Shown here: positions 1,799-58,070 of the stretch, in pieces
Layout of the letters: every line of letters starts with the position of its first letter
Numbering within the stretch: the stretch's first letter is position 1
Assembly (NCBI GenBank): GCA_028753945.1
Contig: JAPNXP010000002.1
Coordinates: forward strand, 3,286,001 to 3,350,000
Reading direction: 5' to 3'
From: Hexactinellida sp. DTS-2022
Lineage: Eukaryota; Porifera; Hexactinellida
Length of the DNA stretch: 64,000 nucleotides
Position numbers and translations under genes: made by a program
Notes under the pieces: generated by a model
Seen by the model: only the letters and a program-made list of their open reading frames with translations
The model's database searches: none
What the model was told of the DNA's origin: nothing

Positions 1799-2400
1799 CA
1801 GAAATGACGTGTTCAGCATACTTGTTTACCTATAATACTCGTTGAAAGCTAACTTCTAGGTTGTTTGGAATTTTCATTAATTTGGTAACTATTTTGTGTA
1901 AACAACAACAACAAATATTCATATTAGAAAATTTTAACCGCGAAAATCATGTTCAGCATTCTTGTTTACCTATAATACTCGTTGAAAGCTAACTTCTAGG
2001 TTGATTTTGAATTTTCATTAATTTGTTTACCTATTTGTGTAAACAACAGCAACAAATATTCATATTATAAATTTATAAACGCGAAATTCGAAATCAGCAT
2101 ACTTGTTTACCTATAATACCCGTTGAAAGCTAACTTCTAGGTTGATTTTGAATTTTAATTAATTTGTTAACCTTTTTGTGTAAACAACAACAATTATTCA
2201 TATTATAAATTTATAAACGCGAAATTCGTGTTCAGCATACTTGTTTACCTATTATAACATTTGTATACCCATTATAACATTCGAAAGTTAGTTTTTATCT
2301 CATATATAAATGCGGTTTCTATTCCCCCATCACTTTAATACAATCCGGACAAACAAACAAACAAACACACACACAGCAATCGAGATTTAATAATATAGAT
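1799..2400 (-). mobile_element. Helitron/Helentron-like non-autonomous element with internal tandem repeats
   Basis: A minus-oriented copy. Its 5' end at about 2400 reads 'tattaaatctcgattg' on the minus strand, followed by a GTTT/GT microsatellite and 'tccggattgtattaaagtga'. Then come about three to four ~140-bp monomers, each with 'gttgttgtttacacaaa' and a 'ttagctttcaacggg' segment. The same architecture recurs at 10612-11465. A 5' end, internal tandem repeats and hairpin-rich 3' ends elsewhere suggest a DINE/HINE-type Helentron relative. That class is inference. Confidence 0.55.
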
Positions 2401-2461
2401 ATTTTCGTCACTCTTCAGAGCCTAATCCATCAATTTGGTGGGAAATGGTACCTCTATTATA

Positions 2462-3005
2462 AACACACATCTATTCTATTGATGTTAGTTTGTTTATGTG
2501 TACGTTTGGCCAGATTTTGTTTAAGTGATGCTGGAATAGAAATCGCATTTATATATAACATTTGAAAAATGTTATAATAGGTAGACAATTATGCTGTTGG
2601 CGAAATTCCCTTTTTCATATTCTCATATGATTTTTTTTTTTTTGTACACAAATAGGTAAACAAATTAATGATGATCAAAATTAAACTATAAGTTAGCTTT
2701 CAAACGGTATTATTAGTAAACAATGATGCTGAACACCAATTTCGCATTTGACATTTTTAATATTAATATATATTATATTGTTGTTCTTGTGGTTACACAA
2801 ATTTGTAAACTAATTAATGAAAGTTCAAAATCAACTTATAAATTAGCTTTCAACGGAAATTATAATATAATTAATGGTAAACAAATTAATATTATGAAAA
2901 ATTGCAGAAATGGTGAGAATTAAGGCCGAAAATCGGATGTTAACTTGAAGTACGTTGCACCGATCCGTCCCAAAGAGACCGAGACCGAGGAACTCGTTTA
3001 GTATA
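2462..3005 (+). mobile_element. Diverged copy of the tandem-repeat Helentron-like family
   Basis: A plus-oriented, more diverged copy with the same order: a 'ttaagtgatgctggaataga' block, monomer remnants with 'gttagctttcaaacgg', then the 3' end 'ccgagaccgaggaactcg' at about 2977-2995. It sits head to head with the minus-oriented copy at 1799-2400. It has no coding capacity. Confidence 0.5.
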
Positions 3006-3514
3006 CTATACAAGTACATAAATCTCCAAAATTAATGACACAAAAAGAAAATTTTTGCCAATTTGTATTGTGGCCGGCACAGTTGTGGGCTATAGAAAAT
3101 TGGCCTAGAGATTCAAAAAGGTTCCGGAACACTAAATTAATCAATTCAAAATAAATGTATTTACTGTGATGTAGTTTTCTCGCCATTTCACAAAATAGTG
3201 CAAATATAATGTAAATATGTTAAATTATTTAGTGTTGAAAAGATTCCTTCACAATATATTTACATCTAAAAATGCTTACCTGTGATATGAAATTGAAAAG
3301 CTCTTCATCACTGCAGATATTTCCCAAAATTCGCTTGGAATAGAAAAATAATCCAATCCAAAGAAGGCTCGTTTCCAAATGCTGTTTGGTATGGATAGGT
3401 GTTAAATGTTGTATGATAGTTTGTGTTATATTTAATTTCACCCACATTAAATATTTTACACAACATTGTTCATTGTTATCTAACATCATTGCATATAATG
3501 CATCCTTCACTTCT

Positions 3515-5245
3515 CGTTCCAGAGAAATGGAAGTAAATAAGGAGATGCATAGTGAATACCGTGGACAATATGCTGCATATCTCGGACAATAAGAAAGAAA
3601 ATAATCCAAATTTAAACTTTCAAATCAACGAAAACGGGAAACGATCTGACAAATGAAAGTGGATACAGGGACAAATTTGAATTTTTGTGAGAAAACACCT
3701 GATATCGTCTCGTAAATGTAGGCGCACCGTTAGTCCATACTCCCACACCAAATCTCCAACATAAACTGTATTGATCAACGATATAATTTTTCAAAATTGA
3801 AAAAGATCTCAGAAATGGAAGTAGATAAGGAGATGCATAGTGAATAGCGTGGACAATATGCTGCAACATCTCGGACAAAAAGAAAGAAAGAAAATAAGTT
3901 TAATTACAACTTTCAAATCAACGATGATGGGAAACGATCTGACAAATGAAAGTCGATATAGGGACAAATATATATTTTTGTGAGAACCACCTAATATCGT
4001 CTCGTCAATGTAGGCGCACAGTTTGTCCATACTCCTACACAAAATCTCCTACATATTCCTTATTGATCAACGATGTAATTATTGATGATGGAACAGGATC
4101 TAAGTAATGGAAGTAGATAAGGAGGGAATAGTGAATAACTTGGACAACATGCTGCAACATCTCAGAAAAAAGAAAGAAAATTAGCCAAATTTTGACTTTC
4201 AAATCAACGATGATGGGACACGATCTGACAAATGAAAGTGAATATGGTGAGAATTTTAAATTTTTGTGAGAACCATCTAATATCGTCTCGTCAATGTAGG
4301 CGCACCGTTTGTCCATACTCCTACACAAAATTTCAAATATAATCCTTATTGATCAACGATGTAATTATTCACAATGTAAATGATTTGAAAAATGGAATTT
4401 GATAAGGAGATGCATAGTGAATCACGTGGACAATATGCTGCAACATCTCAAAAAAAATAAAGAAATTAATACAAATTTTGAATTCAAATCAACGATAACG
4501 GGCACGATCTGACAAATGAAAGTGGATATTGGGACAAATTTAAGTTTTTGTGAGAACCACCAAATATCGTCTCGTTAATGTCGGCGCACCGTCAGTCCAA
4601 ACTCCTATACAAAATCTCCAACATAATCCTGATTGATCAACTATTTAATTATATATAATGGAACAAGTTCTGAGAAATGGAAGTAGATAAGGAGATGCAT
4701 TGTGAATACCGTGGACAATATGCTGCAACATCTCGGATAAAAAGAAAGAAAGAAAATAAGCCAAATTTTAACTTTCAAATCAACGATGATGGGACACGAT
4801 CTGACAAATGAAAGTGGATATGGGGACAAATTTTAATTTTTGTAGAAAACTCCAAATTACTTCTCGTCAATGTAGGGGCACCGTTGGTCCATACTCCTAC
4901 ACAAAATTTCCAACATAATCCTTATGAATCAACGATTTAATTATATATAATGGAACAAGTTCTGAGAAATGGAAGTAGATAAGGAGATGCATAGTGCATA
5001 CCGTGGACAATATGCTGCACCATCTCGGATAAATAGAGAGAAAATATGCCATACTTTACTTTCAAATCAACGATTACGGGACACGATCTGACAAATGAAA
5101 GTGGATAAAGAGACAAATTTTGGAAAAGTTTCCAAGATAGTGCGAGGATTCTGACACTGAAATGGAAAAAAGCCAAAATTTGACATCTAAAGCAACGAAA
5201 ATAAGACTTCATCTGACAAATGTAATGGATAAAGTGACAATAATT
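3515..5245. repeat. Satellite array, ~290-bp unit, about 6 copies
   Basis: The phrase 'tttcaaatcaacg' recurs near 3617, 3908, 4195, 4482, 4775 and 5073, a period of about 287-298 bp. Each unit also carries 'acgatctgacaaatgaaag', 'tatcgtctcgtcaatgtagg' and 'aggagatgcatagtgaata'. Minus-strand open frames of about 60-97 residues look alike only because the DNA repeats. Frame length and reading differ between units, so I do not call them genes. Confidence 0.85.
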
Positions 5246-6087
5246 GAGTATTGAGGTTCAAATCTTGAATATATATAGGCCATTAGTAACAACAATTCCT
5301 GACTCATTAAAAAATGCATTTAATGGCCATAAGCAGCAAAGATTCTAAACTAATTCAAATAAGTTTATACAGGGCATTAGCTGCAGCCATAGATGCATAA
5401 ATTACTAACTCATTCAACTATGTATTAACCGGCCATTAGCTGCAGCAATTCATAACTCGTTTAAATATGTATATACAGGCCATTAGCTGCAGCAATTCAT
5501 AACTCATTCAAATATGTATACACCGACCATTTGCTGCAGAAATTCATAACTCATTAAAAAATGTAAATAGAGACCATTAGCTGCAGCAATTCAGGACTCA
5601 TACAAATATGTATGTAAATACCATTACCTGCAGCAATTCATAACTCATTCAAATATGTGATACAGGCGATAAGGAGTAGCATTTCATAACTAATTCAAAT
5701 AGGAATATACGGGCCTTTAGCTGGAGCATTTCATAACTCAATCAAATATGTATATTCTGGACATTAGCTGCTGCCATTCATAACTCATTCAAATATGTAT
5801 ATACAAGCCATTAGCTGCAGCATTTCATAACACATTCAAATATGTATATACAGGGAATTAGCTGCGGCCATTAGCTATAGTCATTCATAATTAATTCAAA
5901 TATGTATATACAGGCCATTAGCTGCAGCAATTCATAACTTATTCAAATATGTATATACAGATTATTGGCTGCAGCAATTTAAAACTCATCCAAATATGTA
6001 TACACATGCCATATGTTGCAGCAATTTATAACTCATTCAAATATGTTTATACAGGGCATTAGCTGCAGCCATTAGCTGCATAAATTA

Positions 6088-6505
6088 CACAATGTGACAA
6101 AAGATTTTTCCTGGCTATCAGTAGAAATATCTTAATTCCTTATACTCTAAAAGGATAGAATCTTGAGATAACAACATCAGGACTTTGATTTTACTCAATG
6201 AAACAAATTTCTTAATTTACAAATCTACAATAAAAAATCACTGGTATTATCAACTTTTTTTCCCATTAATTAGAAATATCATAGTGCAACATGAATATAA
6301 TGTCTCTGTACTAAAGCAATTCAAAAGTATAACAGCTGCATCAAAACTGAGACATTTCGGTAAATTTATTAATCTCATTGTCAACATGACAAAAGCAAAG
6401 TTAGAAGAGCAGAAAAGTAGTTTTGAATGCTTTACATGTGTAAGGAATTAGGAAATATCACTTGCAACCCAGGAACGAATTTTTTTAATATTTTGTCACA
6501 TTGTG
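6088..6505. mobile_element. 418-bp element in the minisatellite, TTA target duplication
   Basis: The ends are inverted repeats (CACAATGTGACAAAA on the left, its complement on the right), flanked by TTA at 6085-6087 and 6506-6508. Minisatellite resumes on both sides, which fixes the borders. A 3-bp TWA-type duplication fits PIF/Harbinger or a CACTA relative; the family is unresolved. The 88-residue open frame at 6185-6451 matches nothing I know and is probably chance. Confidence 0.75.
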
Positions 6506-6920
6506 TTATTAACTCATTCAACTATGTATTTACCGGCCATTAGCTGCAGCAATTCATAACTCGTTTAAATATGCATATACAGGCCATTAGCTGCAGCAAT
6601 TCATTACTCATTCAAATATGTATACACATGCCATATGTTGCATCAATTTATAACTTATTCAAATATGTTTATACAGGGCATTATCTGCAGCCATTAGCTG
6701 CATAAATTACTAACTCATTAAACTATGTATTTACCGGCCATTAGCTGCAGCAATTCAGAACTCGTTTAAATATGTATATACAGACCATTAGCTGCATCAA
6801 TTCATAACTAATTCAAATAAGTATTTACCGGCCATTAGCTGCAGCAATTCATGACTCGTTTAAATATGTATATACAGGCCATTAGCTGCATCAATTCATA
6901 ACTCATTCAAATATGTAAAT

Positions 6921-7644
6921 CAGTAATTCCTCGTTTCACGCGGTTTTTTTACGCTTTTTCGTTTTACGCGGAACAATTTTTTATGACCCAAATTTTTTAC
7001 GCGATCCTCAACTCGTTTTACGCGGTTTATCTATGATTTTCATACAATTAATTCTCTTTTTTATGGATATTTTCGATAATTTTTAAGATTAGTGGTAACA
7101 AAGCGGTTCTACATTTCCAAAAAACAAAAATGATGATTTACAGATAGTAAATAGTTAGGGATATGTATTTATCGTATAGTAAGTTCATCCAAATATATTA
7201 TTGGTCAAATTAATACATATTTGCTTCACTATTCACACTAGAGATACCCGGTTGTGGGAGGTACCCGAAGGTGTAGGGTTGCGGTATGAAGGGAATTTTA
7301 ATTCCCTTCACAACACAATTCCCTTTCTGTGGGAATTCCCAAGTATTCTCACAAGTTGGTTTCTATCAGGATTTCATAGGTTAAAATAATTTCCATTCAA
7401 AACGATATTGGAAATCATATGGGAATTCCCATGGGATTAACATACACACGGAAACCTTGGCTATCTGAGAGTTCCGGAAGTTGGATTTTTTAGTGTTTAA
7501 ACACTAGGTATTTAAAATTTTATTCGATGTTTATAATATTTGGAAACGCATCTATTGGTTTAATATGTGGTACTATGAGAAAGAACAGTTTTTTACGCGG
7601 GCTTTTCAAGGAACGCATCTACCGCGTAAAAAGATGGATACCTG
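6921..7644. mobile_element. 724-bp pogo/Tigger-type element in the minisatellite
   Basis: It starts CAGTAATTCCTCGTTTCACG and ends with the inverted form ...GGATACCTG. Several 'tttttacgcgg' and 'ttttacgcgg' motifs lie subterminally at both ends. Array units flank it directly, so the borders are firm. The right flank is TA; the left flank looks mutated from TA. The CAG...CTG termini and likely TA target fit pogo/Tigger-like non-autonomous elements. No transposase frame is present. Confidence 0.7.
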
Positions 7645-9862
7645 TACAAGCCATTAGCTGCAGCAATCATAACTCATTCAAATATGAATATACGGGCCTT
7701 TAGCTGGAGCATTTTATAACTCATTCAAATAAGTATATTTTGGACATTAGTTGCTGCCATTCATAATTCATTCAAATATGTTATACAGGCCATTAGCTGC
7801 AGCAATTCATAACTCATTTAAATATTTATATACAGACCATTACCTGCAGGCATTGATAACTCATTCAAATTTTTATACACAGTCCATTACCTACAGGCAT
7901 TCATAACTCATTCAAATATGGATATACAAGCCATTAGCTGTAGCATTTCATAACTCATTCAAAAATGTATTTACCGGCCATAAGCAGCAAAGATTCATAA
8001 CTCATTCAAATATGTATATACAGGCCATATGTTGCAGCAATTTATAACTCATTAAAATATGTATATACAGACCATTAGCTGTAGCAATTCAGGAATCATA
8101 CAAATATGTATGTACAGACCATTAGCTGTAGCAATTCATGACTCATTCAAATATGTGTATACAGGCATTAGTGCAACAATTCATAACTTATTCAAATATG
8201 TATATACAGCTTATAGGTTGCTGCAACTCATAACTCATTCAAATATGTATATACAGGCTATTAGCAGCAGAAATTCATAACTCATTCAAATATGTATCTA
8301 CAAGCCATTAGCTACAGCATTTCATAACTCATTCAAATATGTATATATATATAGGCCATTCGTAACAGCAATTCCTTACTCATTAAAAAATGCATTTACC
8401 GGCCATAAGCAGCAAAGATTTCATAACTCATTCAAATATGTACATACAGGCAATAAGCAGCAGCAATTCATAACTAATTCAAAAATATATTTACCGTCCA
8501 TAAGCAGCAAAGATTCATAACTCATTCAAATATGTATATACAGGCCATTACCTGCAGCAATTCATAATTCATTCAAATATGTTATACAGGCCATTAGCTG
8601 CAGCAATTCATAACTCATTCAAATATATCATACAGTCCATTACCTGCAGCCATTTATAACTCATTCAAATATGTATATACAGGCCATAGGCAGCAGAAAT
8701 TCATAAATAATTCAAAAATTTATTTACCGGCAATAAGTAGCAAAGATTCATAACTCATTCAAATACGTATATACAAGCCATTAGCTGCAGCATTTCATAA
8801 CACATTCAAATATGTATATATAGGGCATTAGCTGCGGCCATTAGCAGTAGCCATTCATAATTCATTCAAATATGTATATACAGTCCATTAGCAACAGCAA
8901 TTCATAACTTATTCAAATATGTATATAGAGATTATAGGCTGCTGCAATTCATAACTCATTCAAATATGGATATACAGGCTATTTGCAGCAGAAAATCATA
9001 ACTCATTCAAATATGTATATACAAGCCATTAGCTGCAGCATTCATAACTCATTCAAATATGTATATACAGGCGATAGGCAGTAGCATTTCATAATTCATT
9101 CAAACATGAATACACGGGTCTTTAGCTGGAGCATTTCATAACTCATTCAAAGATGTATATTCTGGACATTAACTGCTGCCATTCATAATTCATTCAAATA
9201 TGTATATACAGGCCATTAGCTGCAGCAATTCATAACTCATTTGAATATGTATATACAGGCCATTATAATGGCCTGTATATAGATATTCGAATGAGTTTGC
9301 TTGCTTGCTGCAGCTAATGCATTAGCTGCAGCAATTCATAACTCATTCAAATATGTATATTCAGGCCATTAGCTACAGCAATTCATATCTAATTCAAATA
9401 TGTATATACAGATTATTAGCTGCAGCAATTCATAATTAATTCAAATATGTATTTACCGGCCATTAGCTGCAGCAATTCATAACTCATTCAAATATGTATA
9501 CACAGACCATTAGCTGCAGAAATTCATTACTCATTAAAATATGTATATAGAGAACATTAGCTGCAGCAATTCAGGACTCATATCAATATGTATGTACAGA
9601 CCATTAGCTGCAGCAATTCATAACTCATTCAAATATGTGTATACAGGCATTAGCTCAGCAATTCATAACTCATTCAAATATGTATATATATAGGCCATTA
9701 GTAACATCAATTCATGACTCATTCAAATATGTGTATATACAGGGCATTAGCAGCGGCCATTAGCAGTAGCCATTCATAATTCATTCAAATATGTATATAC
9801 CGGCCATTAGCTGCAGCAATTCATAACTCATTCAAATATGTATATACAGTCCATAAGCAGAA

Positions 9863-10331
9863 TCAACTATCAAATTCCCCGGTCTGTGTGGATAAAAGCT
9901 ACTGTGCAGCTGCTAATACATTCGGAGGCCGAATTGTTTCATATAAATATGGTTTCTTGTTGGACATTTTGCGGAATAAATTGAATATTTTGAGACTGCT
10001 CGAATGTCATCGGTTACTTATTTACAGTCTGCTCCATATCAATGGGGACATTCACTTTCATACTATGTAAACCATGCTGTCTCTCTCTGCCTAGAGATCG
10101 TATATTCATAAATCATGCCTGGGAGAAATTAGTCTTTGCTCAACAGTAGTAAGATTCAGAATTGGGAAGGAATCTCTTTAAAGTTCATGCCACGACAGAG
10201 AGCTATCTTTGGTGTTTTGCCAGCTTTAATATTCATATTGCAATCTTTGCAGATGTATTGTGGCCTATTTGATTGCATACTGAACGCCTACGAGATTAAG
10301 TCAATAAAGAATATGTCTATTAATACCCAAA
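9863..10331. other. Non-coding, nothing recognised
   Basis: Unique-looking sequence right of the minisatellite. Two open frames of 60 and 86 codons (9888-10070 and 10136-10396) have no recognisable domain and run into a transposable-element end, so they are not called as genes. Confidence 0.4.
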
Positions 10332-16227: not shown

Positions 16228-16754
16228 GGTTAAATTACGGCAGATTTACCCAAAAAAACACATCATTATTTGCTAAAGACCTGTACTGTGTGATCTATCA
16301 GATAGATCATCGTTATGGGCGGTTGGTGGGCGGTTTAGAATTTTGATAAGATCTAAATAAAAAAATTTGCGAACCGTTTGAAACCAAAAAATGAATAAAA
16401 AGGTCATCTTTTCATGCGAAATTTGATAAAATGCTTGATAAAAAAAATTCCAAGTCATAATTCAAAAATGTAGACCGTCTACCAACTCCTTACGCTTATA
16501 ATCTTCGAATATTCATTCTGATAACAAACATTGATGGGCCGCATTGCCAAATTACCGCATATTATCTACCACCACTTTTGGAAATCGCCCTATGGGAGAT
16601 TTGTATTAGCCAAATTTTGAAACCGACAAAAAATAAAAAGTATAATAGATAGGGTCATTTTCTTTTTTGTTTATTGATTTGTATCGTATAGGTATATATT
16701 TCTCACAATTACAGATTAATACAAGAACTTTCATTCACGTGGTGTAATTTAACC
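16228..16754. mobile_element. TTAA MITE 'GGTTAAATTAC', copy 1 (internally deleted)
   Basis: Ends GGTTAAATTAC and its complement, with TTAA on both sides (16224-16227 and 16755-16758). Compared with copies at 22770 and 33711 it lacks about 190 bp between 'acacat' and 'cattatttgc'. Its left TTAA is the same four bases that close the element at 13656-16223. Confidence 0.88.
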
Positions 16755-16758
16755 TTAA

Positions 16759-22140: not shown

Positions 22141-23790
22141 AAATAAAAGATTTTTTAAAAATGTTTAAACCTTTATATTTCTCCTGAATTTCTATAATAT
22201 ATTCCTAGATTTCTGACGACTTATGGTTACTAGCCTACCAATATAATAGCTAAAAGAAATAATCACAACGATTAACTTATTTCTTAATGTATCATACTTA
22301 AACTTGGAGAATGTCTAGAAAGAGATATACATATATTTATAAGATCAGTAAAAGGTAAACTATTTTTTCAATCAGTTTTGATTGTATTAACCTATTATTA
22401 TTTTGGGGGCCTCCTCCTTTTCCCCACACAGCCGCCCTAACCTCTCCATCCATACAGTGGAAACCGCACATCTATAGCCATTCAATCGGACTCCATTTTA
22501 TAATTTAATTAGCCTTCGTTCGTATGTGTGTAACGACATAACAGAATGAGCATCGCATTGATGCGCCCTGATAATGCGGTTCCCAGTGTACAAAAAAAAC
22601 TCTCAAAGGAAAATAGGTTAATTAAGTTACAGTAAATTAATCAAACTATGAAATTAAACACTATTACAGTGAACTCCAAGTCGGCTATAAATCGGCTTAT
22701 AACAAAGTTAAATAGTCCGGACATCCTTATATTTAGTCAAATAAATTGATATATGTAATCTCTTTTTAAGGTTAAATTACGGCAGATTCACCCAAAAAAA
22801 CACATGAATTTAGTTTTGAAGGTGGGAGTTTGAATTTCACATATATGATGGAAGACATCATAGCTATATCGAAACTGAAAACGAAATCTAATTATCTTCT
22901 ATAAATTCGAAATTATTGGGATTGCAGTATTATGCTAATACAAAAGTCCCATAGGGGGATTTTTTCAGACTCCACCTGATAAGTGTGTGGTTTGCAAGAT
23001 CATTATATGCTAAAGACCTGTACTGTGGATCTATCAGATAGATCATCGTTATGGGCGGTTGGTGGGCGGTTTAGAATTTTGATAAGATCTAAATAAATAA
23101 TATTGCGACCTTTTGAAACCAAAAAATGAATAAAAAGGTCATCTTTTCATGCGAAATTTGATAAAATGCTTGATAAAAAAAATTCCAAGTCATAATTCAA
23201 AAATGTAAACCGTCTACCAACTCCTTACGCTTATAATCTTTAAATATTGATTCTGATAACAAACATTGATGGCCGCATTGCCAAATTACCGCATAATATC
23301 TACCACCACTTTTGGAAATCGCCCTATGGGAGATTTGTATTAGCCAAATTTTGAAACCGACAAAAAATAAAAAGTATAATAGATAGGGACATTTTCTTTT
23401 TGGTTTATTGATTTGTATCGTATAGGTATATATTTCTCACAATTACAGATTAATACAAGAACTTTCATTCACGTGGGGTAATAGGGTGGACCTCAAAAAT
23501 TTATTTTTAGAAAAATATATGGGCCACCCTCTGATTCTGTTAAGTTCTTTCGAAAAACGATTCACGTAAATTTTTAACCAGATAGGATTGCTTTTCGGGG
23601 TCGCTACCACCACAAATATTTGTGAACTCAGATATACAATGTATATCTGATATTATACATACTAAGTAACTCTCCTTTACTTACATAAACAATGAAAATT
23701 ATCTACTTGTTGACTATAGACAAAATAGAACACAATTTGAGACTATTAATATGATTTAATATGATAGATATGCAGAAAATAATACTAATC

Positions 23791-25998
23791 TTAGTCATCC
23801 AGAGTTTTTTTGAGGCAGTTAGCGTAACAGAGGCGATGATTACTAACTACTTGCAAGAGAAACTGTTTCTCCTCTTCATCGCAGGTATGTAATCTGTTGT
23901 ACTCAGTAATCAAAGAAACACCACGTTCCGCATTATCATTTACAACCTGTATATGTTCCACAATATCCTTCGCAACAATATATGTTGGATCTCCAATCCA
24001 TTCCCCAGGGTCTTTCTTTAAGAAAGTTGTCTCAAGTCCAATTCCTTCAAAAAAGCGTAATGTGTTAGAAGAAACAAAGTCTTCCAATTTGCTGTCCTGA
24101 ATATAATTTGGATTCACAATGGCTCTCTTAATTGGGTGTTCAAAATTAATCTTTTTCAACGCATTGACCATCTTCTCCTTTGTATTTGATGCCAATGTTT
24201 GGTCAAAAAACGCTAGTGCAACTAATTCCTCACTCAGATACCAAAGATGTCCCAAAAACTTTTTGACACTAACTCTTGAAACTTCTACATTCTGTGTTTT
24301 GTACTCTTCTAACTGCTTCAGAAAATTCAGATCTTGTGAGGGTGCTTGTGACGAAGATGTAGACAAGAACCAGGCCTTTACATAGACGCTGACAACGAAC
24401 ATACATATATTCTTCAGTCCAAACTCTTCCCTAGATGTAAGTTTGAACTGATGTCGATACAGCCATATCTTTAGACAATATATTGCCTTCGCCATCCATC
24501 TTGATCTGTGCAAGGCACCAGGAGCCATTATCCGAATACCACGTGGAGGTACTCCACCAAAATTTATTATTGTCAATTCCAAAAATTCTCTATAATCATC
24601 TCGGGGCTGTTTATTTAGTAGCTGCTGTTTACAAAAGTCTATCATTTCATCAGATAAATTATTTGCGTGATTTTGGGGGGTTACTTCCATTAGAGAAATC
24701 TCATAGTTATCTTTTGCAATGAACTTCCAGTATGCTTGGAATCGTTTAAATAACTGGATTTCTGGACCACTAGAAGGACCCATATATAGATTGAACACAG
24801 CTTCGAGAACAAGCTCATAAATATGGTGACGACAGGCAATGTGCAGTAGATCCTTACCAAGCTTCTGCTCAAGGAGTATACAAGCACCATTTCTATAACC
24901 AGTATTTGAGCTTGTAGTATCAAAACACATTCCCTTCACTTGGTCTATCACCTTCCAATCAACAATGGTGGTAGCTATCGCGCTTGACATGTTATCCCCA
25001 GTACCCGCATAAATCTTTGGAACAGCAAGCAATTGTTGAATACCAACTCCAGATACTAGAATTGGGAGACGATCAACAACTTCTTTTCCTATTATATCAC
25101 AAAGCATCTTTCCATCCCAATGTATTATCAAGGGTACAGTTGGATTAAACCCCTCCTTTAAGCCCTCTGCAATTTCTTTACGAAATTTGCTTCTTTCTCG
25201 GTGAATTGACATCCGATTACAAACGATATCTTTCAGATCGTGGCCTAGGCTCTTCGCGGTTGCTGCAATAATATATGTTGCACTACGATCGCTAACCTTT
25301 GTTCTGTCAAGAGCCCCTGCCAAACCACAATCCATAATATTTTTGGGTCTCTTTCGAATTGAATCGGGATAGTAAACATTTTCATCAGTGCTAGAATCTG
25401 AATCACAACGACTACTAGCGACTTCCAAAGTGCAATAACGTTGTTCATTCTTTCTTTTTCTTTTCTTCTCTCTTTCTATTTGATTTAGAATAGTGTTTTT
25501 TCTTTCCATTGATCTCTCTTCCATTTTTGAAAGTTTCATGTCAACTGAGCCCATGGACCCAATTCTCCCAAACTCTCTCTGTGCGAGAAGAAAAGCTTTG
25601 TCTTCTGGATTTGTGATCATTGTTAATGCATCTTGATGCGCAATGTCGAATAGATTATCAAGATCTGAAGTAAACAACACTTCTTTTTCAACCAATCCTT
25701 CTGACCTCTTTGCTGTATTTTCCTTATTTTTTTTCAGTTTCTGCCATGAGGTGAATAGCTTCTCGATGGATTTAATTACATGCTTTTTTTGACGAAAGGG
25801 GATTCTCGCCCGTTCCCAGAAGATTTGGAGAGCTTCGGCTACGATTGTCGAGCTCACACGAATGGTCTTTTTCAATGAAAGATGATTGTAAAAAAATACC
25901 GACATTACCTGACGTTTGGAAGGTAGTTTGGATCCTGTCAAATCCGATGATCTTGGCCCAATAAGCCAAATATTAGTAGTACTTCTTGAAGTTGCCAT
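23791..25998 (-). CDS. hAT-like DNA transposase, 735 residues, intact
   Basis: Predicted DDE/RNase-H-fold transposase that would excise and insert the surrounding element by acting on its TAGGGTGGACC ends in the nucleus. Visible features: a basic, Lys/Glu-rich N-terminal third (about residues 60-190, including REKKRKRKNEQR), suited to DNA binding or nuclear import. A candidate first acidic residue is D295 in LIIHWDGK and a second is D360 in GMCFDTTSSNTG. They are followed by a C-x2-H motif in IACRHHIYELV (about 389-392), then an RW motif in HRSRWMAKA (about 517). This order resembles hAT-family cores; the final catalytic Glu and the C-terminal dimerisation block were not pinned down. I recall a widespread animal protein family with the 'HWDGK' and 'GMCFDTTxSNTG' signatures. 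The start at 25998 follows a stop-free reading and lies 32 bp below a TATA-like box. No intron is needed. The 8-bp target duplication supports hAT over other superfamilies. Confidence 0.8.
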   Translation of the reverse strand: MATSRSTTNIWLIGPRSSDLTGSKLPSKRQVMSVFFYNHLSLKKTIRVSSTIVAEALQIFWERARIPFRQKKHVIKSIEKLFTSWQKLKKNKENTAKRSEGLVEKEVLFTSDLDNLFDIAHQDALTMITNPEDKAFLLAQREFGRIGSMGSVDMKLSKMEERSMERKNTILNQIEREKKRKRKNEQRYCTLEVASSRCDSDSSTDENVYYPDSIRKRPKNIMDCGLAGALDRTKVSDRSATYIIAATAKSLGHDLKDIVCNRMSIHRERSKFRKEIAEGLKEGFNPTVPLIIHWDGKMLCDIIGKEVVDRLPILVSGVGIQQLLAVPKIYAGTGDNMSSAIATTIVDWKVIDQVKGMCFDTTSSNTGYRNGACILLEQKLGKDLLHIACRHHIYELVLEAVFNLYMGPSSGPEIQLFKRFQAYWKFIAKDNYEISLMEVTPQNHANNLSDEMIDFCKQQLLNKQPRDDYREFLELTIINFGGVPPRGIRIMAPGALHRSRWMAKAIYCLKIWLYRHQFKLTSREEFGLKNICMFVVSVYVKAWFLSTSSSQAPSQDLNFLKQLEEYKTQNVEVSRVSVKKFLGHLWYLSEELVALAFFDQTLASNTKEKMVNALKKINFEHPIKRAIVNPNYIQDSKLEDFVSSNTLRFFEGIGLETTFLKKDPGEWIGDPTYIVAKDIVEHIQVVNDNAERGVSLITEYNRLHTCDEEEKQFLLQVVSNHRLCYANCLKKTLDD

Positions 25999-26029
25999 TG
26001 ATTATTATTACAAACAACTGATTGTGTGG

Positions 26030-26037
26030 TATTTATA
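26030..26037 (-). promoter_or_regulatory. TATA-like box upstream of the transposase
   Basis: On the minus strand TATAAATA lies 32 bp upstream of the ATG at 25998. Spacing would put transcription start close to the ATG, giving a very short leader. In AT-rich DNA this may be chance. Confidence 0.35.
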
Positions 26038-26578
26038 CGAAATATACGAATCCGTATACAGTAAGTGTTAAATGTATACACAACTGTTGTTTAGACAATA
26101 CATGTGCAGATCAATAAACCTGACAAATATAAACAAATACATGTTGCGGTAGAGACCTCTAAAAATGCTCATAATAGGTTAAAAATTCGAGAGTGCTATG
26201 TTATCGAGTTTTTGAAAATATTTATGGGGTGGCCCATTAAAAATTGCAAAATATTATTTTTTGGGTCCACCCTATGGGGTAATTTAACCCTAACGAAGAT
26301 ATTTCTTACCCCATAAATTTCTGAGTAATTAATTTTAATCAGCTTATAACAAATTTGGTGTATACAAATATTAAATCGATGTCCGCAATTCGTTATAACG
26401 GGAGTTCACTATACTTAATAATATACGATGTAACAAAGTTACATCGTCTATGGTGGACTTACTAAATAGAAACGAATTAATTACTTAGTATAAAGTATAT
26501 TAGTAGATAATTAAAAATGTTAACTCACTTGATTCCACAGATAATTTACCTACATACTAGTCGTCAGTCTTTTGCATC

Positions 26579-28819
26579 CTAGATCGTAGATAACAGCTCG
26601 TCTTTCGCCACTGGGGATGTGCCTTTGCAGGTCACGTTTCCATAATCTGGGCTCACCATGATTGGGATTGCGTTGCCTGAATAACCTCGAGCAGAGGTCC
26701 CCACAAAGTTCGATGTACCTTGCCTTTGAGCGCTTTCGATAGAGTGTTGTGAGCTGTTATTCAATCGTTTGGACATCATCTGAAATATTTCCATTTGTCT
26801 TGTAATTCGTGATCAGCATTGATACGACAGGTTGATAGTGGTCGAAGTAGTTTTGGATACAAAGGATGGCTGTAGGATTATCTGTGGCTCTGTGTAAACT
26901 CCAACGCACCTCGCGAATTAATGAGTCTTTCGTTGTGTAGAAGTTATTGGCAATGTATACATCGGCATCAAGAATAGCAGAAGCAGCATAAATTTCCACA
27001 TCTGTTCCCCAAATGGATTCACGATTCATAAGTCTTTGTGTGCTAAGGTATTCACACGGTGTCGTTCGTTTGGTTTTAAAATAAAATCCTAGTTCCTTGT
27101 TCCTTCACTGGCGATAAAGCGAGAGATGATGGAACGAAGATGTAGGTGACTGTTTTCACTCCCAGTAATTAATATGGATATGCATCGAAATAGACAATTA
27201 CCATCTCCTGCGATATGTTCCGAATCGCAAGGTTCAAAATCGCTAAGTAACTTCCCAACGCTATTAAATGGTTGTCTACAAACTGATTCAAATGAAATCC
27301 CCAACATATCGCATTTACTTCGCTGCCAATTTTCATCTATCACTGTGATCCTTGGGTCCATCGGTGTGTCGTAGGAATTACGAAGCGGAACTGCGTCGTG
27401 AAATGATTCCCATAGCATTGTGTTTAGATACTGCATTCCCTAAAATATTAATTTGTTTACCATTTAATAAATATAAGAATTATTATAATGTCACAACTTG
27501 CTTTAATATACTAAACAAACATACTAATTTAAATTGAATTGAGTTGTATGTCATACAACTCAAGTCAAAACTATCTACCAATACACTCATACAATGTATG
27601 AGTGTATTGGTAGATAGTTTTGACTTACCAGGAAATACAGTACTTTGTGTGTGTATCTAGCACGTTGGGTATCTGTATAGCTGGGGTAGAGATCTGATGT
27701 CCATCCGAGTATAATCTCCATAATATCTCTCTTCTACAATAAATGGGTAAAATGGTAATTTGTAGTTATCGTATGAATCATTGTTAATTAACTTACAACT
27801 TCCTCTTCTTTTCCGCCATCCAAATACTCGAATAACATCGTGTTGGGAGTGTAGCTGTGCGCTTTGTATAGCAAGTGGTCCAGCTCTTCATGTAGAGGAG
27901 TCATGAAGGTCTGCCCACGTATATTCTGCTTTAGGATTTCCTACAAATGACAACATTGTAATAAGAAAAATATTACGGAATGTTACAAATATTCTGGATT
28001 GACGTCAAAAGAAGGTGTAAAGCGAAAATAACAATGAGTGTCAATAAAGATTACACTAAATGAATTAGACTATAGATGTGAAACGGGAAGCTTACTTTTA
28101 AGTTATTAAGGTGTTGAAAAATAGATTCCGTAGAAATCCGAAGAGATTCTGGTACATCTAAAAAAGGAATATTTTACTATTAACACTATTTTATATTTTA
28201 AATAACAACTCAATCACAATGAATTTACCTGTGAGGTGTTGATTCCGTTGCTAGTATCGAGGCTTACTTTCTTCTTAGTATTCTTGGGACTAGAGGATCT
28301 TTCGAAGTAAGGTCTTGTGATATGGATTGGAATCTTTTTGTCCTTCTTCGTTCCTAATTCTGATTGAGAAATTATAACATGGCTTTATGTTGATTTCAAC
28401 ACCGTGTAAGGCCCGAGATGTTTCGTTTGCTTCTTTGTTTTGGGCATGTGTTTTATTTTGGGCATGTTGGTATAGATGATTTTATCACCCTTCTTTAGAG
28501 GTATCAGGATTGCCAACAGTGTGTCTTCTGGCGTAGATTCGCTTGCGAGGGCGACCCCTACGTTTCCGGTTTCGAAAACTGTCTGTGGCCTGAGATGCTA
28601 TGTCAAGTGAAAAAAAGGATTCCGAAATCCCCGGTGTTGATGGATGTATAGATGTTTGGGATGATGTTGGCGCAGGTGGAGGAGGTGCTTGTGAAGCGAT
28701 GGTAGCAACGGGGGGCTCGGTATCTGAAGGAAAGCTGTCCCGATCTGTTGAAATAGATTTGGGAATGAATCATCAGGCTCATTGAAAATATGTCCATCGA
28801 AGCTTGACTCGCTCGACAT
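26579..28819 (-). pseudogene. Broken, spliced GPY/F- and OTU-bearing relic (Gypsy-integrase or Ginger kin)
   Basis: A minus-strand fossil locus. Parts, in transcription order: a leader-like segment (28819-28598, beginning MSSESSFDG); a segment with a KKGDKIIYTN...TKHLGPYTVL pattern (about 28600-28385), the GPY/F module that ends Gypsy-type integrases and Ginger-type transposases; a basic segment (about 28350-28229); and short exon-like pieces at 27940-27797 and 27733-27629 with GT-AG borders in one phase. Last come the two parts of an OTU-type cysteine protease: the Cys side GDGNCLFRC near 27180, and the Trp-Gly and His side, IWGTDVEIYAAS and FDHYQPV, near 27000 and 26830. OTU domains cut ubiquitin chains; in transposon proteins their role is unclear. 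The locus as a whole is broken, with at least a couple of breaks, and no integrase catalytic core was found. Alternative: a host gene domesticated from such an element. Confidence 0.6.
27542..27626. repeat. Two adjacent perfect hairpins in a putative intron
   Basis: Bases 27562-27592 pair perfectly with 27596-27626 (31 bp, 3-nt loop aat). Just left, agttgtatg/catacaact (27542-27560) forms a second 9-bp stem with a 1-nt loop. The large hairpin overlaps the minus-strand donor GTAAGT at 27628-27623. Confidence 0.92.
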
Positions 28820-33250: not shown

Positions 33251-33710
33251 AATAACCGAAAATTATATATAATACCAACTTAATCAATAAATCATTTCCA
33301 AATAAATCTTATTATATTTAAGGATATTGATTATACAGTAATATCAATGGAGTATAATATAAGAGAATCCTTATATAGAGCTGAGCTTTGTATAGTTCAG
33401 ATTTTTCCCATACTAAAAGCCCAGGCTTACTTTCTAAAGGTCAATTTAAAAGCTTGGGGAAAACTGAACTTTCTCAGTGTCTGAATACACATACTGAAAA
33501 ACTGAACTCTACTAGAGCTGAGCTCTATATAAGTAATTTCATAATATAATTACCTGTTTGACGAAATCATGTTTGCACACATTCGTTGAAACAAGTTTTC
33601 TCTCTTAAGAATCACAAGTGTTTTCCTGAAATGGAGACTTCCACAGCAAGAACAAACAAAAGTTGGGCCTTCAGCTATCTCAGATAGATATTTGAGAATA
33701 ACCGACTTAA

Positions 33711-34430
33711 GGTTAAATTACGGCAGATTCACCCAAAAAAACACATGAATTTAGTTTTGAAGGTGGGAGTTTGAATTTCACATATATGATGGAAGACATT
33801 ATAGCTATATCGAAACTGAAAACGAAATCTAATTATCTTCTATAAATTCGAAATTATTGGGCTTGCAGTATTATGCTAATACAAAAGTCCCATAGGGGGA
33901 TTTTTTCAGACTCCACCTGATAAGTGTGTGGTTTGCAAGATCATTATTTGCTAAAGACCTGTACTGTGTGATCTATCAGATAGATCATCGTTATGGGCGG
34001 TTGGTGAGTGGTTTAGAATTTTGATAAGATCTAAATAAAAAATATTGCGACCTTTTGGAACCAAAAAATGAATAAAAAGGTCATCTTTTCATGCGAAATT
34101 TGATAAAATGCTTGATAAAAAAAATTCCAAGTCATAATTCAAAAATGTAAACCGTCTACCTACTCCGTACGCTTATAATCTTTAAATATTGATTCTGAAA
34201 ACAAACATTGATGGCCGCATTGCCAAATTACCGCATAATATCTACCACCACTTTTGGAAATCGCCCTATGGGAGATTTGTATTAGCCAAATTTTGAAACC
34301 GACAAAAAATAAAAAGTATAATAGATAGGGACATTTTCTTTTTGGTTTATTGATTTGTATCGGATAGGTATATATTTCTCACAATTACAGATTAATACAA
34401 GAACTTTCATTCACGTGGGGTAATTTAACC
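33711..34430. mobile_element. TTAA MITE 'GGTTAAATTAC', copy 3 (full length)
   Basis: 720 bp with ends GGTTAAATTAC and complement, TTAA at 33707-33710 and 34431-34434. The best-preserved copy of the family; copies 1 and 2 are at 16228 and 22770. It is inserted precisely in an exon of the Helitron-type relic. Only the ends, not the body, are shared with other TTAA elements here. Confidence 0.92.
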
Positions 34431-34735
34431 TTAAGCGCACCTTGCATAGTCCTATACCTATCTAACTCAGCTAGGTTGTGCTTCATTTTCTCTTTGGAGT
34501 CTATCCGTTTCTCGGTAACAAGCTTCAGCTGGCGTTCATTATATTTCGCCCTCTCAGCTCGATCCTTGCGCTTATCAGCAACAGCGGCATTATGTTTAGC
34601 TCTCTACGCTGGATCTTTAAGTTTATCTGCAACAGCGGCATTATGTTTAGCTCTCTCAGCTGGATCTTTAAGCTTAGCTCCAACAGCGGCAACTGTAGAT
34701 GTGCAAGAGTGCAAGTGTTTAACAGTATTCATAAT

Positions 34736-37858: not shown

Positions 37859-39978
37859 TTAGTGAGTGTCTATATTTCTTGTGCACCATCTTAGAAACAC
37901 TTTGTACTCTGCTGCAAGAGCATTGCCCTGTATATCAGCATTTTCTTCTGATCCATAGAACTGTGCAAGCAATGTAATGTGAGGTGCTGCTAAGTCAGGA
38001 GATTGCAAGGCCTCTTTGTTGAATATTCCGAATGCTGTCACTACGTCACCTACTCTTCCAAGCAGTCTCTCCTGAAATTGGGAAGTAAGTTCATCGAGCA
38101 CAGCAAAGTACAATTCTCTTCTATAATAGGATTCGGGACACTCATCAGCCAGTCCAAGCATCTTTGTTCTTCTTCTTGTTGAACGTACTTCGATCCCGAG
38201 TTCAGCTGCTCTTTCAGAACATATATTGAATGCGACTGCAAACACCTGAATCGATATCATCTCACACAGTGTATCATACACACTCTCTGCAGTTGTTTTA
38301 AACTGAAGTAGATTTAACTTGGGAGCCTGCAAAAAGTTCGCAAATGGTTGTGTCACACCAAAAATCATTTTGGCTACATTAATAGAAAGGATGAACTCGA
38401 ATGTTCCTATATTAGAGAGGAGTCCATTAGCATCTGAAACTGTACTTCTGTCCATTCCTGGACTGGTACTGAGTTTCTCTAACGCTTCCAAAACGACAGG
38501 GTTCAGACACTGAAAGGATTCTAGAGCACTGAAATGAGAACTCCAACGTGTGTCTGACAATGATTGCAATCTCCGCTGCTTGGAACTAGAGGATATATTG
38601 GAGTTTTGTTTGCAATGTTCTAATACTGCTTTACGTTAGGCTCCGTTGAAGAATGTGTGACTAAACTGTAGAGTACCAAACATGTTGCGGATATAAGAGT
38701 TAAGCGAATGACTATTGCATAACACAAACAGTGCTCGGGGCTCCAGCTGTCTTAGCCGAGTCTGAACACCACTATATTTACCTGACATCACCGCCGCACC
38801 ATCATATGACTGACCCCGACAATCTGACAATGAAAGACCGAGCTCGCAAACAAAGGATTTTAACATTTCTGTTATAAATTTCAGCGTTGGTCACTTCCAG
38901 TGATTTGTACCCCATGAAACGTTCTGTTGGTTCACATGTATCTTCAGTGACAAACCGAAGCACTAGACTTGCCTGTTCAACACAGGAAATGTCCTTTGTC
39001 TCATCACACATAAGTGTATAATACTTTGCTGCTGTCAGCAGGCTTAAAATCTGCTCACGAATATCTTCTTCACACAGTGAAATTAGCTCATTCTACGTAG
39101 ATTTTGTTATGTACTGTGCATTTCTAGCTCCAGAAAAGAGGTGCTCATTCAGTAACGGATCATATCGAGCTTGGTGATTTTGAAATTCGATGAAATTCCC
39201 TCGGTTAAGGCTTTCTGAATCTTCTCTGTGTCCACGGAATGAAATATTTTGCCTTGCAAACAGCTCAAGAAGTTCTATGACACGTTACAGGATTGCTTTG
39301 TTTCTGAGAATTTTCTCATGGCTTTTTTATGCTGCCAATGCACTTTGCTTGTCAATTACTTCATCTATTGGCACACAACATTGAAGGTTTTCCAACTTCT
39401 CTAAACAAATTTGGTGTGATTCACTTTTTTCATGCTCACATAATTTCTGTAAACCCTTCCTCCAATTACTAACACCGTCCTCTGACCACTCCTTTGAATA
39501 ACGATATTTCCCTGACACTCCACTAGTCTCTAAGGCAAACAGAAAGCATGGCAAGCACATCATGGCATGCTTAACAGGTGAATAGGTCAACCACAACGAG
39601 TTACCTTTTCTCACGACTCGAGCGTTTTCATGTACCATGAAGATAGAAACGACCTATATTGTCCGGGGTAAATCTTTCCCGGGAAGTGTTTTCTAGGCAT
39701 ATTATTCACAGTTTGCTGAAAAGAAGGGCTAGAAACAAGAAAATGTCGATCTTGCTTACTTAACGGCTTTGGAAAAAGTCCCAAATACTTCTGAAATTTG
39801 TAGTGTCGTTATTACTTGTCATCTCGCTGTCAGCCATATTTCCGTGAATGTTCGACTGGGATAACTCAATTGAAATAGCCCCTCCCTTACAGGACTCACT
39901 ATCAGCAACACTATTGACACCTTGGTTGCCAAAGTATGTCAAAATTGATCCTGTTACTCGCATTCCTTTGGGTTCCAT
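37859..39978 (-). pseudogene. hAT transposase relic (TTF zinc finger, DUF4371-like, ZMYM1-type)
   Basis: Minus strand. Start segment MEPKGMRVTGSILTYFG (39978-39760). Then a TTF-type zinc-finger-like region (39638-39327) with LWLTYSPVKHAMMCLPCFLF and HEKSESHQICLEKL. Next YDPLLNEHLFSGARNAQYI followed by a stop (TAG near 39096), then LMCDETKDISCVEQASLVLR (catalytic-Asp region, to 38880). CRGQSYDGAAVMSGKYSGVQ and LCNSHSLNSYI (the C/N-x2-H motif) follow, to 38640. Finally DTRWSSHFSALES (RW motif) and a 236-residue frame ending at 37859. At least three frame breaks and one in-frame stop separate these blocks, so it is inactive. It is a different hAT lineage from the 735-residue protein at 23791. 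The hAT C-terminal dimerisation block seems cut short near 37859. Confidence 0.8.
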
Positions 39979-55993: not shown

Positions 55994-58070
55994 GGTCCAG
56001 GTATACTCTAGAGCACTTCTACCAAAAGTATTTACCCAATTTAACTCAATTTTTTACAGCGTATATACTTCTTCTTCAGGATGCCAAAAATACAATAATA
56101 TTGGCATATATACTAAGAGAGGAAAAATATATTTTTTAATTTTACCACTATTGGGTAGAAGATCAATCAGCAAAGATTTACAAGACCAATAATATTATTG
56201 ATTGAATGTGTTTAGCTGGATGTAATAAAACTAATGAGTGCAGGAATTGTGAATATCTGGATTTTTCTGGATTTCAAATACTTTTATGTGATGTCGACTT
56301 TCAAATGAAGATTTTCCTGATCCAAAATCCAAAAAGCACATGAACTATCCATAATAGAATAAATCTCTGCACTCATTAGTTTTATCTTCACGAGATCTAT
56401 CCGAAACCGTTGAGCTTTTGATTCCACGACCAAAATTGACAAAATGACCTATTACACAAAACTGAAAATGTTAGTTTTGAGATATAGGCTTTTGAAATAT
56501 GAATATAAAATTTAGGTAAAGTATAGAGGAGGTAAACTAGTAAATTCACGTTGTTCATTCAAATTCTAACTCACTATGTGTATTGAAGTGAATTAGCCGC
56601 CGCCACAACCACTTGCACCTCCAAAGCCACTTCCGTTCTCCCTCCCAGTTTGGTATTTATCTCTTCACCCAACAAAAAGTTGACGTGACCCCACAATTGT
56701 TAGGAGCACTATTGGGATCCCAATCTAATTCTCCACCCAATAACCACGGCCCTGCGCATTCAATAGTGTTCATTTCAATTTAAATTTGAAATTATTCCTC
56801 AATTATCCCTATATTGAACACAAAATTCTAAATTACACCTGTGCCGAGAGCATTTTCGTAGTAATTGCAATTATTTCCATAAAATTTCCAAATCGAACTA
56901 CCAAAAGTCTAAAATTACACCTGCGCAGACAGTAATTCCCTTTGTATTTTGATTATTCGTATATGAAGCCCTATATTTACCTAACAAACCAAAATTACAC
57001 CTGTGCCGACATTAAAATCCTTTATATTTGCAATTATTCCAATATAAACCTATAATGAACTACCAAAAATCAAAAATTACACCTGTACCGACATCAATTT
57101 CCCTTATATTTGCAATTATTTCAATATAAATACTATATTGAACTACCTAAAATCAAAAATTACACCTGTACCAAAAGCAATTATATTTGTATTTGCAATT
57201 ATTCCTATTTAAATCCTATATTGAACTACCTAAAATCAAAAATTACACCTGTACCAAAGGCAATTATATTTGTATTTGCAATTATTCCTATATAAATCCT
57301 ATATTGAACTACCTAAAATCAAAAATTACACCTGTACCAAAAGCAATTTTATTTGTATTTGCAATTATTCTAATATAAATTCTATATTCAACTAACAAAA
57401 ATCAAAAATTACACCTGTGCCGACATCAATTTCCTAAATATTTGCAATTATTCCAATATAAATCCTATATTGAACTACCTAAATCAAAAATTACACCTGT
57501 ACAAAAGCAATTTTATTTTATTTGCAATTATTCTAATATAAATCCTATATTGAACTAACCAAATCAAAAATTACACCTGTGCCGACATCAATTTCCTAAA
57601 TATTTGCAATTATTCCAATATAAATCCTATATTGAACTACCAAAAATCAAAAATTACACCTGTACCAAAAGCAATTATATTTGTATTTGCAATTATTCCT
57701 ATATAAATCCTATATTGAACTACCTAAAATCAAAAATTACACCTGTACCAAAAGCAATTTTATTTGTATTTGCAATTATTCTAAAATAAATCCTATATTG
57801 AACTAACTAAAATCAAAAATTACACCTGTGCCAACAGCAATTTCCCTTTAATATTTTATTAATTTTTAATTTTTTTATTTTTTTATTTTTTTATTTATCA
57901 GAGACGAGGCCACGAAAATGTGTCAAACTTGAAAGATATATGGAATTTTTCTTAGAAATTTCTTGGGAGTACACATGGATATCAATACAATCCAAAAATA
58001 CAATAAAAACGAAAAAGACCTTTTTGGGGTTTTTTCGAAATTTTCCATTTTTCTAGAGTATACCTGGACC
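55994..58070. mobile_element. TTAA element 'GGTCCAGGTATACTCTAGA', copy 3, expanded
   Basis: 2077 bp; ends GGTCCAGGTATACTCTAGA and inverse, TTAA at 55990-55993 and 58071-58074. Both margins resemble copies 1 and 2. Its interior is enlarged by the ~83-bp array at 56770-57860. Confidence 0.9.
56770..57860. repeat. ~83-bp tandem array inside the TTAA element
   Basis: About 13 units built on 'caaaaattacacctgtacca' and 'tttgcaattattcctatata' and 'cctatattgaactac'. Two subtypes (acctgtaccaaaagc and acctgtgccgacatc) alternate in places. The 61-63-codon frames here are repeat-derived. Confidence 0.92.

Follow-up and report, generated by a model that had tools for sequence, protein, structure and literature searches.

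The hATm group is divergent and has been proposed as a fourth hAT family, a tree in PMC6004678 placing it within the hAT superfamily. In the passages of that paper that describe the group, its members have the ends TAGGGTG and CACCCTA, a target-site duplication (TSD) of 8 or 9 bp, and one transposase gene; more than 74 Repbase entries are attributed to it, and PF05699, the C-terminal dimerisation domain, is reported for hATm-6. In the giant isopod genome, hATm is among the classes listed as expanded (PMC9107163).

A second point of reference is Hermes of the housefly (PDB 8edg, 2bw3, and 4d1q), which has the same 8-bp TSD and the same D-D-CxxH-ER layout as the element described here. Hermes also carries subterminal repeats, two of which form a quasi-palindromic pair at its left end (PMC10368747); a possible counterpart in the present element is a mirrored inner motif.

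The element lies in a 64,000-nucleotide stretch of a hexactinellid contig (the window, meaning the whole stretch that was analysed), and it is very probably, by mechanism as well as by group, a cut-and-paste DNA transposon that belongs to hATm within the hAT superfamily. It adds a good specimen to a known group and is no new kind; the group has been little studied. A paper on hATx-6, PMC8721813, reportedly mentions hATm once. The filing as hATm was made because the ends and the TSD match the description in PMC6004678, and it rests on that published description rather than on placement in a transposase tree; the likeness to hATm as described there extends to the TAGGGTG...CACCCTA ends, the TSD length, and the single transposase gene.

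The element and the nest of repeats around it

The original prediction was of a perfect target duplication and matched termini at 23482-26274, and both were recovered by a scan for terminal inverted repeats (TIRs) and TSDs; the duplication is confirmed by paralogous empty sites as well. The best-scoring TIR/TSD pair of the 5.8-kb locus delimits exactly this interval, with 14 of the 16 terminal bases matching and a perfect 8-bp TSD, TGGGGTAA, which is one of the two lengths (8 or 9 bp) of hATm. The ends, TAGGGTGGACC and GGTCCACCCTA, are exact inverted repeats of 11 bp, and they reproduce the 5'-TAGGGTG and CACCCTA-3' termini of hATm exactly. The features of the locus are as follows:

22680-22769 and 26290-26874: older outer repeat hosting the TTAA repeat; at least 39 other copies at 93-99%
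22770-23481, plus strand: left part of the TTAA-flanked host repeat, starting GGTTAAATTAC; TTAA at 22766-22769
23474-23481, no strand: left TSD TGGGGTAA (TIR/TSD scan; single copy at paralogous empty sites)
23482-26274, minus strand (that of its gene): transposon of 2,793 bp, very probably hATm-type (TIR/TSD scan)
23482-23492, plus strand: left TIR TAGGGTGGACC, with imperfect similarity onward to about base 50
23521-23529, plus strand: left-end inner motif GGGCCACCC, mirroring the outer TAGGGTGG (by eye)
23791-25998, minus strand: transposase open reading frame, 735 aa, one exon; D295, D360, C389xxH392, R500-W501, E691-R692
26227-26235, minus strand: right-end inner motif GGGCCACCC (by eye)
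26264-26274, minus strand: right TIR TAGGGTGGACC (TIR/TSD scan)
26275-26282, no strand: right TSD TGGGGTAA (TIR/TSD scan; empty sites)
26283-26289, plus strand: right end of the host repeat, TTTAACC; next to it, at 26290-26293, CTAA, which differs from the TTAA duplication by one base

The insertion is shown independently by paralogous copies of the host repeat from which the element is absent and in which the target 8-mer is single. Seven such sites were read, of which two lie within the window, one near 16.7 kb and one near 34.4 kb, and the other five elsewhere in the genome; all seven are without the element, and six have exactly one TGGGGTAA, the site near 16.7 kb deviating with TGGTGTAA in its place. 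Other copies of the host repeat run via the single TGGGGTAA into TTTAACC, which is the sequence found beyond the element in the window.

The host repeat is itself a MITE-like, high-copy sequence of about 720 bp with a TTAA target duplication and GGTTAAATTAC ends, and two further copies lie in the window at 16262-16758 and 33707-34434. At least 39 other copies were found at 98-99% identity, with one at 91%, a count that is a lower bound since 40 of the 634 candidates were scored. The outer repeat runs uninterrupted across the site of the TTAA repeat in all four of its copies that were read. The locus is a three-deep nest, in which the outer repeat was followed by the TTAA repeat and then by the hATm element.

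The transposase and its likeness to other hATs

The 735-codon frame, on the minus strand at 23791-25998, is unbroken, as had been claimed, and a TATA-like stretch was noted by eye upstream of its start codon. At the stop-codon frequency of the window, the chance that a start is followed by 735 stop-free codons is about 2e-21. It was also correctly described as the only long intact frame in 64 kb: in the list of open reading frames of the window, which counts ATG, GTG, and TTG starts, no other exceeds 350 aa, and the next two have 343 and 236 aa.

Searches of the Pfam, NCBIfam, and PDB sequences gave no significant match to the transposase. The lowest Pfam E-value among six proteins scanned was 0.024, and PF05699 was found in none of these six at E-values up to 1, whereas PMC6004678 reports it for hATm-6. 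A search of viral contigs and of bacterial and archaeal genomes found no relatives of the transposase. Members of the hAT superfamily have an RNase H fold with a helical insertion domain; single-sequence structure prediction of the window protein yielded no usable fold (mean pLDDT 34.8).

The landmarks of the protein emerge from an alignment of five rows, comprising the window transposase and four relatives, with the row of L017 being without its N-terminus. D295, D360, C389, H392, R500, W501, E691, and R692 are invariant in all five rows, at identities down to 21%, and each of them has the arrangement expected of a hAT, in which CxxH lies after the second D and before the E of a putative DDE triad. 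The invariant ER motif lies 44 residues from the C-terminal end, E691 being assigned by motif and spacing and not by a significant alignment. The label "hAT-like" in the original prediction is borne out, and the ends and the TSD allow it to be narrowed to hATm. As to a BED finger, Pfam gave no match, and residues 1-260 contain no conserved Cys/His set in the five-row alignment. This finger is common in the hAT superfamily but is not present in all hATs, so that its absence is not disqualifying.

A profile made from the classical hATs of this genome matches Hermes with an E-value of 1.8e-42. Counted on the profile alignment, the conserved residues (D, D, CxxH, and the E of the SER motif) fall at Hermes positions 180, 248, 265-268, and 572; D180, D248, and E572 are the catalytic residues of Hermes. 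In the window protein the spacing is D-65-D-331-E, and 44 residues follow the E, the corresponding numbers in Hermes being 68, 324, and 40, whereas the second D is separated from CxxH by 29 residues (D360-C389) in the former and by 17 in the latter. The two systems differ further in that there is no detectable match between the protein sequences, the terminal sequences are different, and the window protein is without sign of a BED finger.

The classical hATs of the same genome (at least 150 PF05699 matches) are found by Pfam models that miss the window protein, and the N-termini differ. Profile comparison with these classical hATs was not significant in the first run (E 0.55), nor when confined to the C-termini (E 0.52). 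When the divergent relative L058 and a further hAT, L056, were included and near-duplicate rows left out, the E-value was 0.0076, with D360 and CxxH in register in this one comparison; its score of 32.8 was reached by none of 150 column-shuffled profiles (the best scored 21.9), and the reversed profile scored 15.8.

Copies, relatives, and short elements

The genome (112 Mb, 18 contigs) has 16 homeodomain matches, which mark it as eukaryotic, and is presumably that of an animal. The whole element as a DNA query has nine matches in it. The closest, on C1, is full-length and has its own TSD, ATGCATGC, but is broken; compared over about 2,790 bases, it has 18 substitutions relative to the window copy (0.65%) and three small indels. 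Near-identical full copies, which the original prediction had proposed looking for, are represented by one full-length copy, although not an intact one. The claim of a recent insertion stands. The opposite picture, a lone, old, and diverged copy with no related short elements, does not hold as a whole because of the close C1 copy; its part concerning short elements does hold (see below).

The third copy, on C12, is decayed, with the TSD ACGTAGGT (by eye) and about 530 extra bases inside. Taken as an outgroup, it assigns 6 substitutions to the window branch and 10 substitutions plus all 3 indels to the C1 branch, with two substitutions (one of them coding) left unassigned and omitted. The window branch has five coding changes, of which four are silent and the remaining one is K/R. 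The C1 branch has eight, of which one is silent and another creates a stop at codon 122. The silent shares differ with a Fisher p of 0.032, on small numbers. This bias, small as the numbers are, suggests that function was maintained in the lineage of the window copy. Judged from the same comparison, the age of the insertion is at most that of the window branch, 6 to 8 substitutions in 2,793 bases.

The transposase as a protein query matched at least 72 stretches of the genome in at least 38 places, with a 6-kb clustering limit. Two pairs of relatives are nearly identical and open: L013 and L014 (99.85%, frames of 753 codons each) and L018 and L019 (99.56%, frames of 780 codons each). L058 (C11:7194500-7199800), which has an open frame of 741 aa at 21% identity and keeps the D, D, CxxH, RW, and ER landmarks, is possibly a sister lineage of hATm.

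Twelve hATm elements were delimited, the ends and TSDs of L013, L014, L019, L022, and C12 being read by eye; L021, L025, L030, and L032 were left out, since no TAGGGTG pair flanked by a TSD was convincing in them. The TSD is of 8 bp in nine of the twelve and of 9 bp in two, and L018 has none. The ends are TAGGGTG with variants at one end, namely TAGTGTG (L013-L015), TAGACTG (L018, L019, and L022), and TAGGGAC (C12). The automatic scan ranked the true ends fourth in L002 and second in L016, and it returned none in L018. By eye, nine of the twelve show, about 40-52 bases inside each end, an often degenerate inner motif that mirrors the outer TAGGGTG and reads CCACCC, CACACCC, CATACCC, or similar; L013-L015 are without it. 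As a pattern, this two-part end is not enriched in the genome (17 sites versus 20 in the control), and 11 of the 17 sites are at hATm elements or near transposase-protein matches.

A search for short elements with the ends of the window element had also been suggested, and no derivative came to light, either with the whole element as query or in a partner search around its exact ends. None of the nine whole-element matches is a short paired-end copy. The exact 11-bp end occurs at 14 sites in the genome, versus 24 for the reversed control, and 5 of the 14 sit in the three long copies. Among the other nine, six are right ends, and a search reaching 1,500 bases from each site found a partner end for one.

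This one site is an element of 405 bp on C13 (L051:1107-1511) with an 8-bp TSD, GTGTGGTT, and the ends CAGAGTGGACC and TAGGGTGGACC. At least 39 further copies of it, near full-length or partial, match at 87-93% (40 were scored). The pattern CAGRGTGGACC has 540 sites in the genome versus 38 in the control, and all 100 of the sites listed read CAGAGTGGACC. Ten copies of this family were fetched with their ends, and nine could be delimited, with an exact 8-bp TSD in seven, a match at 7 of 8 bases in one, and no TSD in one. A longer member of 2,457 bp, L109 (L109:22-2478, on C1; TSD ATCCTCAC), shares the ends and contains broken coding pieces, which are not among the hATm protein matches; two of the pieces had no Pfam match, and to us they look Mutator-like. 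Since L051 belongs to this abundant, separate family and its long member falls outside the hATm matches, the 405-bp elements were rejected as derivatives of the window element. Cross-mobilisation of the CAGAGTGGACC family, the ends of which agree with those of the window element at 9 of 11 bases, is possible but unsupported.

Mechanism, activity, and rival readings

On the strength of its landmarks, the 735-aa protein would be an RNase-H-fold DDE transposase with D295, D360, and E691 as the catalytic triad. It would recognise the TAGGGTG ends, possibly together with the inner CCACCC motif, excise the element, and then insert it with joins staggered by 8 bp. The chemistry of Hermes involves hairpins on the flanking donor DNA, and by analogy, excision here may take the same course. 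The mirrored inner motif may constitute a second contact, comparable with the subterminal repeats of Hermes (PMC10368747), although another kind of N-terminal domain would read it. A broader proposal, which is tentative and rather doubtful as a whole, would be that hATm transposases lack a BED finger, that a zinc-free N-terminal domain reads a two-part mirrored end (the outer TAGGGTGG and the inner CCACCC some 40 bases in), and that the window copy is an active source. If this were true, hATm elements would be hATs with a distinct mode of end recognition.

The chances that the window copy is active today seem roughly even. It could instead be a complete hATm element that is inactive and has an intact frame only through the youth of its insertion, a reading to which we give somewhat less than even weight: the close sister is broken, the other copy is decayed, no short derivatives were found, and on a branch of just 6 to 8 substitutions, an intact frame is to be expected for a while without selection. 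This is countered by the silence of four of the five coding changes on that branch, by the perfect TSD, and by the nesting of the element in two other repeats.

An affiliation to a separate superfamily, hAT-like only in the length of its duplication and in a few motifs, is improbable. It would account for the lack of a Pfam match and of a BED finger, and the profile similarity to classical hATs is weak and dependent on the comparison made; against it, D, D, CxxH, RW, and ER occur in the Hermes order at similar overall spacing, the profile score exceeds those of all 150 shuffles, and a tree in PMC6004678 puts the group inside hAT. Less credible still, to the point of being very improbable, is a domesticated transposase gene that has retained its transposon ends; the intact frame, the few copies, and the bias towards silent changes would agree with it, but the exact ends and TSD, the empty paralogous sites, the recent insertion within repeats, and the existence of a close sister that has its own TSD at a different site do not. 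The hATm reading leaves the general picture unchanged. It provides a clean and datable specimen, with an intact gene, exact ends, empty sites, and broken sisters, of a group missed by the Pfam library used, and hence a practical candidate for testing the mobility of hATm and the way in which ends are found by a hAT that has no BED finger.

Elsewhere in the window, the 343-aa open frame (58757-59788) contains an NTPase domain of the NACHT type (Pfam, E 2.5e-17) and may represent one exon of an NLR-type gene. The 236-aa frame (37859-38569, minus strand) has no Pfam match at E-values up to 0.01; it has a TRWSS motif that we find reminiscent of hAT/ZMYM-type transposases. Comparison of the window with itself revealed degenerate tandem-repeat arrays at 1808-3023, 3522-5120, 5257-9866, and 56772-57861.
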